Positions 20,340 through 22,794 of a stretch of DNA of 29,253 bases are shown here, piece after piece. The position numbers and the translations under genes were made by a program. Source of the DNA: a virus. The stretch covers positions 1 to 29,253 of the IMG/VR virus record IMGVR_UViG_3300021963_000494, one strand, 5' to 3'. The notes below the pieces were generated by a model, which did not search any database, had not been told where the DNA came from, and was given only the letters and a program-made list of their open reading frames with translations. The stretch's first letter is position 1. Each line of letters starts with the position of its first letter.

Positions 20340-20387
20340 TGTAGATGCTGTAACAAGGTCTACAGAAAATCTTGCTTTTTAAAGGAG
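20340..20387 (+). promoter_or_regulatory. ROSE-like RNA thermometer in the dnaK leader
   Basis: Helper hairpin TGTAGA-N13-TCTACA (20340-20364), then the thermometer core CTTGCTTTTTAAAGGAG (20371-20387). UUGCU pairs with AGGA through U-A, a G-G mismatch, C-G and U-A, extended by two A-U pairs, hiding the AAGGAG Shine-Dalgarno sequence. This is the conserved U(U/C)GCU design of ROSE elements, which control small heat-shock genes. ATG is at 20395. Confidence 0.72.
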
Positions 20388-20394
20388 AAACAAT

Positions 20395-22275
20395 ATGAGC
20401 AAAGTCATCGGTATCGATTTGGGTACCACAAATTCATGCGTAGCCGTTATTGAAAACGGAATCCCCAAAGTAATTGAAAATAGTGAAGGTGCTAGAACTA
20501 CACCATCAATCGTAGCATATACTTCTGATGAAATTTTAGTAGGTGCAAGTGCTAAACGACAAGCAATTACAAATCCAAAGAACACAATCTATGCGGCTAA
20601 GCGACTAATCGGTCGTAAGTTTAAAGAACAAGCTGTTCAAAAAGATATAGACTTGATGCCATATACCATCGTTGAAAACGAAAACGGTGATGCATGGGTT
20701 CAAGCACAAGATAAAAAGTTAGCACCCCCACAGATTAGTGCCGAAGTACTACGTAAGATGAAAAAGACAGCCGAAGACTATCTTGGTCATGAAGTCACGC
20801 AAGCAGTTATTACTGTGCCTGCGTACTTTAATGATAGTCAACGACAAGCAACTAAAGATGCAGGTCGTATTGCTGGACTAGAAGTATTACGAATCATCAA
20901 TGAACCCACAGCTGCCGCTCTTGCATACGGCGTGGACAAACAAGACAAAAGGGATCGAAAGGTCGCAGTGTATGACTTAGGTGGTGGTACATTTGATGTA
21001 TCTATCATTGAGTTAGCGGACGTTGATGGTGATAAACAAATTGAAGTCTTAAGCACAAACGGAGACACTTTCTTGGGTGGTGAAGACTTTGACCAACGCA
21101 TCATGGACTTCTTGGTTGACGAATTCAAGAAGGATCAAGGAGTTGACTTGACCAAAGATGTGTTAGCATTGCAACGTTTGAAGGAAGCCGCAGAGAAGGC
21201 TAAGATTGAACTAAGTAGCAGTAGTCAAACAGATGTTAACTTACCGTACATTACAGCAGATGCAAGTGGTCCAAAACACTTGAATGTTAAATTGAGTCGT
21301 GCCAAACTAGAAAGCCTAGTTGATGAACTAATCCAGCGCAGTATTGAACCTTGCAAAATTGCTATGCGTGACGCTGGTGTAACTAATAGTGATATTGACG
21401 AAGTTATTCTAGTTGGTGGCATGACACGCATGCCTAAAGTACAAGAAACAGTTGAAAGTTTCTTTGGTAAAGCACCACGCAAAGATGTTAACCCCGATGA
21501 AGCAGTTGCCGCAGGCGCTGCCATTCAAGGTGACGTATTAAGCGGTGGACGCAAAGACGTATTATTGCTTGACGTTACACCATTAAGTTTGGGTATTGAA
21601 ACATTAGGTGGAGTATTCACTAAAGTTATTCAAAAGAATACAACTATTCCAACTAAGGCTTCACAGACATTTAGTACTGCCGAAGATAATCAACCTGCAG
21701 TTGATATCAAGGTAGGACAAGGTGAGCGTGAATTATTCAAACATAACAAGGTGTTAGGAGATTTCAAATTAGATGGTATCGCCCCTGCACAAAGAGGTGT
21801 ACCTCAAATTGAAGTAACATTTGATATTGATGCTAACGGTATTATGCACATCAGCGCCAAAGACAAAGGCACAGGTAAAGAAAACAAGATTACCATTAAA
21901 TCTGACAGTGGCTTAACCGAAGCAGAGATTAAGAATATGGTCAGCGAAGCAGAAGAAAATGCTGAGGCTGACAAGAAGCAGGTTGAATTGATACAAGCAC
22001 GTAATGGTGCAGAATCAACTATGCATGGCTTTAGTAATGACTTGAAAAAGTACGGAGATAAAGTCACACCAGAAGAAAAGACAAAAGCAGAAGATGCAGT
22101 GAAAGCTGTTGAAACTGCAATTGATGGTGACGATGTTGAGAAAATCAATCAATCTGTAAAAGATTTGTATGAGGCTATTGGTCCAATTACCAAAGTCAAA
22201 TACGAAGAGGAGCAAAAATCAAAGGAAGATCCTGTGGTTGATGCAGAAGTTAAAGAAACAGCTACAACTGTTTAA
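20395..22275 (+). CDS. dnaK: Chaperone DnaK (Hsp70)
   Basis: 626 residues, near the E. coli length (638). ATPase domain signatures: [61 protein letters not shown]. The linker and substrate domain begin [17 protein letters not shown]; the lid and a charged tail follow, ending [17 protein letters not shown]. All family motifs are intact. It should fold or disaggregate phage or host proteins; no dnaJ or grpE is seen here, so it likely uses host co-chaperones. Expression is controlled by a ROSE-like leader. It forms an operon with hsp20. Confidence 0.98.
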
Positions 22276-22284
22276 CTTAAATAA

Positions 22285-22337
22285 ATCGGGTGCCGCATGG
22301 TGCGGGCCCGATATGTCATAACTTGCTTATTAAGGAG
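22285..22337 (+). promoter_or_regulatory. ROSE-like RNA thermometer before hsp20
   Basis: Helper hairpin ATCGGG/CCCGAT with inner CCGCA/TGCGG (22285-22312), then core CTTGCTTATTAAGGAG (22322-22337). UUGCU faces AGGA with a single G-G mismatch, plus two A-U pairs and loop AUU, burying the Shine-Dalgarno sequence of ATG 22345. Same architecture as in front of dnaK, although most of the sequence differs. Confidence 0.78.
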
Positions 22338-22344
22338 AAACAAC

Positions 22345-22794
22345 ATGACAAGAGAATTAACATTACGTTCATTAGACATTCCCGCAGTTCATAGATTTGG
22401 TATAGGATTTGATTCTATGCTAGATGAATTGATGCGTATGAATGCTACACAATCAAACAATAACTATCCACCTTATAACGTGGTACAAAACTCAGAGGAC
22501 AATTTTTCAATTGAAATTGCAGTTGCCGGGTTTAACGAAGGTGAAATTGAAGTTACACTTGAAAACAATGTGTTGACTATTGCAGGCAATAAAGCACATA
22601 ATTTAGATAGTCCACCGAAAGAGTACCTACATCGAGGTATTAGTTATAGAAACTTCCAGCGTGAGTTTATTTTGGGCGAACACGTAGTAATTAAAGATGC
22701 AGAGAATACCAATGGCATTCTAACTATTACATGTGAGCGAATTGTCCCTGAAGATAAAAAGCCCAAGAGTATTGCAATAAAATACAATAAATAA
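22345..22794 (+). CDS. ibpA: Small heat-shock protein, IbpA-like (Hsp20)
   Basis: 149 residues from ATG 22345 (a TTG at 22327-ish would fall in the thermometer; the frame upstream is ignored). Matches IbpA closely: GIGFDSMLDEL, YPPYNVVQNSEDNFSIEIAVAGFNEGEIEVT and YLHRGISYRNFQREFILGEHV, with the C-terminal I-x-I motif (SIAIKY) that locks oligomers. It should hold unfolded proteins for DnaK. Co-transcribed with dnaK; its own translation is gated by a ROSE-like hairpin, the same control used for bacterial ibpA. Confidence 0.96.
   Translation: MTRELTLRSLDIPAVHRFGIGFDSMLDELMRMNATQSNNNYPPYNVVQNSEDNFSIEIAVAGFNEGEIEVTLENNVLTIAGNKAHNLDSPPKEYLHRGISYRNFQREFILGEHVVIKDAENTNGILTITCERIVPEDKKPKSIAIKYNK

Follow-up and report, generated by a model that had tools for sequence, protein, structure and literature searches.

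Does a phage control its own chaperone genes through folded RNA leaders, and if so, what opens them? The question is raised by an IMG/VR virus fragment of 29,253 bases (the window, meaning the whole stretch of DNA that was analysed), which encodes ClpX, DnaK, Hsp20, ClpS and ClpP along with phage replication proteins, for example an ATP-dependent ligase. ROSE leaders are folded RNA switches by which bacteria induce small heat-shock proteins upon heating, and the original prediction placed ROSE-like leaders before both hsp20 and dnaK. These two-hairpin leaders are confirmed here, and their occurrence in phages is far wider than that prediction stated. They belong to a genuine family of ROSE-type elements located on phage chaperone genes, and comparison of their sequences suggests a shared protein reader. 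T4-like cyanophages are abundant in the ocean. Their hsp20 is a core gene (PMC3037559), and no description of its control was found in the open-access literature searched. If true, a ROSE leader on hsp20 would let temperature or folding stress act directly on infection, and the idea is simple to test in cultured phages.

Two ROSE-type leaders in one phage fragment

The features of the two genes and their leaders are as follows.

20340-20397, plus strand: dnaK leader, two-hairpin ROSE-type element, by comparison with relatives
20340-20364, plus strand: dnaK leader hairpin I, the AU-rich helper with bulged G at 20347; covaries in relatives
20371-20387, plus strand: dnaK leader ROSE core, CTTGCTTTTTAAAGGAG / CUUGCUUUUUAAAGGAG, with bulged G at 20374; dnaK ATG at 20395
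20395-22275, plus strand: dnaK (Hsp70); Pfam HSP70, 1.6e-258
22285-22350, plus strand: hsp20 leader, two-hairpin ROSE-type element, by fold, Rfam and covariance model
22285-22312, plus strand: hsp20 leader hairpin I, the GC-rich helper, by fold; its stem covaries across phages and its bulge is G or A
22292, plus strand: bulged G of hsp20 hairpin I, in a stem-G-CC context
22314-22319, plus strand: TGTCAT, outer stem of hsp20 hairpin II, paired in the fold with ATGACA (22345-22350) at the start codon and second codon
22322-22337, plus strand: ROSE core of hsp20 hairpin II, CTTGCTTATTAAGGAG, by pattern, covariance model and Rfam ROSE_3
22345-22794, plus strand: hsp20 (IbpA-like small heat shock protein, 149 aa); Pfam HSP20, 1.6e-16; start backed by relatives

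The hsp20 leader shows the features by which ROSE-like thermometers are recognized, namely U(U/C)GCU opposite the Shine-Dalgarno sequence, one or more 5' hairpins and a small heat shock gene behind the leader; the dnaK copy widens this last feature. In the core, CUUGCUU pairs imperfectly with the Shine-Dalgarno AAGGAG (22332-22337) around a bulged G at 22325, and CTTGCTTATTAAGGAG lies 7 nt upstream of the hsp20 ATG (22345). Single-sequence folding is supportive (z -3.1). Rfam ROSE_3 (RF02523), which has the same general layout as the phage elements, down to the unpaired G of hairpin I, matches 22284-22350 at 29.5 bits (E 0.02), the top score of all Rfam families in the window and below the 43-bit gathering cut-off. 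The leader of one relative (L015) scores 53.7 bits and is the only one of 30 phage records above the gathering score. An in-frame ATG also occurs upstream, at 22297 within the helper hairpin, and would give a 165-aa ORF; relatives favour the 22345 start.

The dnaK leader by itself folds no better than shuffles (z -0.2), so the case for its element stands on comparison: a covariance model (R1) built from 27 leaders matches it at 20341-20397 with E 5e-9. The original prediction had given both leaders a GC-rich helper hairpin and a UUGCU/AGGA pairing with a G-G mismatch. The GC-rich helper holds for hsp20 but not for dnaK, where the helper is AU-rich; the pairing is present in both leaders, but nearest-neighbour models show a single bulged G in place of a fixed G-G pair. 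In the comparison by folding and covariance that it proposed, folding bears out hsp20 but not dnaK, whereas covariance bears out both.

Covariation and architecture across phages

Pairing is retained in 95.7% of cells in the R1 match set, compared with 45-63% in slid controls, and two-sided changes occupy 149 cells versus 49 shuffled. Covariation falls mostly in the helper, and core pairs vary chiefly from G-C to G-U or from A-U to G-U. Helper loops are misaligned in the MAFFT alignments A1 and A2. A3 was limited to leaders whose helper stem has 6 bp, and the 100% helper pairing that it shows stems partly from that selection; A4 gives a fairer count than A3, though it was fitted to the model and shares some members with A3.

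Start-codon pairing of at least 5 bp occurs in 54% of 195 hsp20 leaders versus 14% shuffled, and the pairs of this stem vary between phages (TGTCAT/ATGACA, TTGTTC/GAACAA and TGATTC/GAATCA). Among dnaK leaders the excess is only slight (29% versus 22% shuffled). At 7-20 nt upstream of the helper, 115/195 hsp20 and 109/120 dnaK leaders have a motif resembling TATAAATA or TATAAT (20 and 12 in shuffles), a promoter-like placement suggesting that the mRNA probably starts at hairpin I. Many dnaK and A-type leaders (see below) carry an extra stable hairpin like GGGCATAGTGCCC between helper and core (for dnaK, for example, L137, L154 and L213).

Isolated window cores have a nearest-neighbour energy of about zero at 20-25 °C. 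For hsp20 hairpin II together with its start-codon stem, the energy is -8.7 kcal/mol at 20 °C and weakens to -2.1 kcal/mol by 48 °C. Shine-Dalgarno accessibility computed with ViennaRNA is flat with temperature and is uninformative, as the E. coli ibpA positive control equally fails.

Spread among phages

The two-part layout is present throughout 80 loci retrieved by searching viral contigs with Hsp20, with differing helper stems, and in MAFFT columns of the hsp20 leaders the T, G, C and T of U(U/C)GCU and the start codon are invariant. Leaders retrieved with DnaK as query encode U(U/C)GCU in 63 of 78 cases and U(U/C)ACU in most others. Among unique phage leaders, a matching core and helper purine are found in 195/211 for hsp20 (the remainder mostly mis-started or mis-parsed), and 120/127 dnaK leaders have the element. 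Cultured phages with the element include the Synechococcus phages Syn30, syn9, S-SSM5, S-SM1, S-PM2, S-IOM18, ACG-2014f and S-SRM01, as well as Kyanoviridae phage C48C1, Pelagibacter phage HTVC103P and Pseudomonas jumbo phage PA5oct. Bacterial genomes queried by Hsp20 peptide patterns yielded no relative.

Several genomes depart from the general arrangement. The core of S-B68 is rearranged, with GAGG still paired. The annotated hsp20 start of S-SRM01 (NC_070963.1; L169:381-432) falls inside the helper hairpin; translation more likely begins past the ROSE core, with the ATG at position 432 of the locus. A 525-kb phage (record of L118, G025) has two distant hsp20 copies (63996 and 469828), each with a ROSE leader. 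In L095, L097 and L101, hsp20 directly follows dnaK with a plain ribosome site and without a ROSE leader of its own.

Restriction to chaperone genes

The pattern TTGCTN3-8AGGAG has exactly 2 sites in the 29 kb of the window, compared with 0.21 expected, a count reached in 3/100 shuffles. R1, which was built from relatives, matches the window solely at the dnaK leader and at the hsp20 leader (E 2e-6), so pattern and model agree with the earlier observation that the motif is confined to the two chaperone genes. Across 55 sources (465 kb), all 64 R1 matches with E up to 1 are hsp20 or dnaK leaders, the E. coli match among them being the ibpB leader. Whole phage records of 54-525 kb mostly have one or two strong matches, at hsp20 and, in records that have it, dnaK. 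Scanning ~3 Mb of phage DNA by pattern plus helper gave 306 unique sites, comprising 202 hsp20, 99 dnaK, 3 groES, 1 phasin-like and 1 apparent chance site; these proportions are biased because loci were fetched around hsp20 or dnaK, and other genes there seldom match. The whole-record and ~3 Mb scans thus did not find the motif on many unrelated phage leaders, the outcome named beforehand as counting against the prediction. The phage stress regulon that it proposed is supported at the level of a leader common to hsp20, dnaK and groES.

The groES leaders with the element (L147:3124, L155:5950 and L259:1446) have the A form described below and precede canonical groES, followed by groEL in 2/3. 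Solitary gp31-like co-chaperonins in the other phage genomes examined are without the element. Scanning 80 bacterial dnaK loci with R1 gave a single weak match, at the dnaK leader of an alphaproteobacterial MAG (L461:1449-1503, E 0.48). A weak R1 match before psbD in syn9 appears chance-like on inspection. One full ROSE-type leader precedes a 91-aa phasin-like ORF (L418, minus strand, start 1558; G009:C1:13380-13439) with a weak Pfam Phasin_2 match (E 0.035), in a phage that also has the hsp20 element.

A coupled G-to-A switch in the bulged purines

The bulged purine of both hairpins is G in most phages and A in one clade, whose cores read U(U/C)ACU. With the purine letter left free in the leader parser, core and helper read G/G in 153 hsp20 leaders and A/A in 42, the few G/A calls being cyanophage parsing errors; dnaK leaders read G/G in 89, A/A in 31 and G/A in 1. 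The three groES leaders are A/A and all come from A-type phages. Among 126 unique two-gene genomes, the combination of hsp20 core, hsp20 helper, dnaK core and dnaK helper is GGGG in 85, AAAA in 28 and AAGA in 1 (L139); the others are parse failures or wrong starts, save three whose hsp20 follows dnaK leaderless.

Multiple independent switches were considered and rejected, as the data fit one clade once mis-started ORFs are removed. The AU test allows a single clade of A-type Hsp20s (p 0.62), and the G-to-A switch is therefore one event, unreplicated. The counts are consistent with one event touching at least 4 unpaired sites (6 with groES) that are otherwise almost unchanging. Such coupling across separate leaders of the same genomes points to a shared reader, whereas a thermometer acting only in cis gives no reason for it.

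Hsp20 as candidate reader

In E. coli, IbpA reportedly binds the leader of its own gene and represses translation; Arg93 is required for this, and an aromatic side chain at residue 34 is suggested to be needed for leader binding as well (PMC10474464). Phage Hsp20s have Arg at the first position in 214/216 (the rest Lys), with variable neighbouring positions, and Tyr at the position of IbpA Tyr34 in 212/216 (the rest Phe); E. coli IbpB has Gln and Phe at the respective positions. Arg at the IbpA-93 position may be a common feature of small heat-shock proteins at large. Because these residues are kept and the geometry of the E. coli helper is the same, IbpA-like Hsp20 is the leading candidate for the reader of phage ROSE leaders. 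IbpA position 54 is Ala in G-type phages (Ser in 2) and Thr (44) or Ser (2) in A-type phages, a difference that tracks the RNA letter and may reflect clade ancestry. Ser at this position is found in the mixed genome L139 and in L267. RNA reading by small heat-shock proteins is a recent, little-tested idea in bacteria, and the natural G-to-A switch over several leaders provides a ready genetic handle on it.

Proposed mechanism and alternatives

We consider it likely that the leaders are ROSE-type switches opened by heat and probably by loss of a bound protein, likely Hsp20, and that they make up a chaperone regulon. Hairpin I would be a stable helper, and hairpin II would mask the Shine-Dalgarno sequence, and in hsp20 also the start codon, via weak and imperfect U(U/C)GCU-AGGAG pairing. 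Translation would be low without stress and would rise once hairpin II opens, by heat and probably also by release of bound protein. In the manner reported for E. coli IbpA and its leader, the phage's own IbpA-like Hsp20 may bind the twin bulged-purine motif and be released when drawn onto misfolded protein. Copies of the element on hsp20, dnaK and groES would then form one post-transcriptional chaperone regulon that is on when infection or heat overloads folding. The temperature response, the binding of Hsp20 and derepression by misfolded protein are steps that we infer. A fuller version, to which we lean slightly less than to its negation, is a complete phage chaperone regulon in which Hsp20 is both chaperone and sensor on hsp20, dnaK and groES-groEL, and in which the reader evolved together with all its RNA sites as these changed from G to A within a single lineage.

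A pure cis RNA thermometer, with heat alone melting hairpin II, no protein reader and a helper that just aids folding, is a serious reading that we nonetheless doubt. Reporter and in vitro work shows the two-hairpin ROSE-like elements of Pseudomonas ibpA to act like this (PMC3669281), and the UUGCU/AGGA core is conserved; however, the bulged purine of the helper and those in leaders of separate genes going from G to A in step, and the drifting stem bases beside a constant bulge, are left unexplained. The earlier description of a regulon working purely at the RNA level is doubtful, as the coupled switch and the retained IbpA residues make a protein reader at least as likely. It is unlikely that the reader is not Hsp20 but another factor, such as phage RegA, an RNA-binding protein of the host or the ribosome. 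Any shared reader would suffice for a coordinated switch, and hsp20 adjoins regA in several cyanophages, but the element goes with Hsp20 in cyanophages, in PA5oct and in the Pelagibacter phage, binding of the equivalent leader by E. coli IbpA has been reported (PMC10474464), and the Hsp20 residue at IbpA-54 goes from Ala to Thr along with the RNA letter, though this may be ancestry.

We give very little weight to the idea that the 5' hairpin serves mRNA stability or the timing of late genes and senses no stress. Hairpin I does begin right after a late-promoter-like motif, yet such a hairpin would be expected on many late genes rather than confined to chaperone genes, and it leaves the Shine-Dalgarno-pairing core and the start-codon stem unexplained. 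Chance resemblance or unselected common ancestry is scarcely credible: although the motif is short and the dnaK leader does not stand out in folding, this explanation is contradicted by the covariation, by conservation over very divergent phages and hosts, and by gene specificity.

Relation to known RNA thermometers

The open-access literature searched yielded no earlier description of phage ROSE elements, and subscription literature may hold one. Among 5.39 million open-access papers, none joins 'cyanophages' with 'RNA thermometers', and a paper on cyanophage Hsp20 (PMC3827213) does not mention the leader. The phage elements share two hairpins, U(U/C)GCU opposite the Shine-Dalgarno sequence, a small heat-shock gene and a short leader with the Pseudomonas ibpA thermometers (PMC3669281), but are also found on dnaK and groES, have A as the bulged purine of both hairpins in one clade, and include a start-codon stem in many hsp20 leaders. 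The E. coli ibpA and ibpB leaders have a similar core (CUCGCU..AGGAG) and helper (stem-G-CC-N4-GG), and E. coli IbpA autorepression (PMC10474464) finds its likeness in a phage IbpA-like protein with Arg93 and Tyr34 equivalents. E. coli IbpA acts on other heat-shock proteins via sigma-32 (PMC10474464), whereas phage dnaK and groES bear the element themselves. Phage RNA thermometers already listed are lambda cIII, SPbeta blyA and the sigma-70 fourU (PMC11182007), which are likewise phage leaders but are single cases, not of the ROSE type and not on chaperone genes. In ROSE-G (PMC12857270), too, a UGCU-type motif facing the Shine-Dalgarno sequence has a bulged G, but the motif is CUGCU with opposing G bulges and the genes are those of bacterial ABC transporters.
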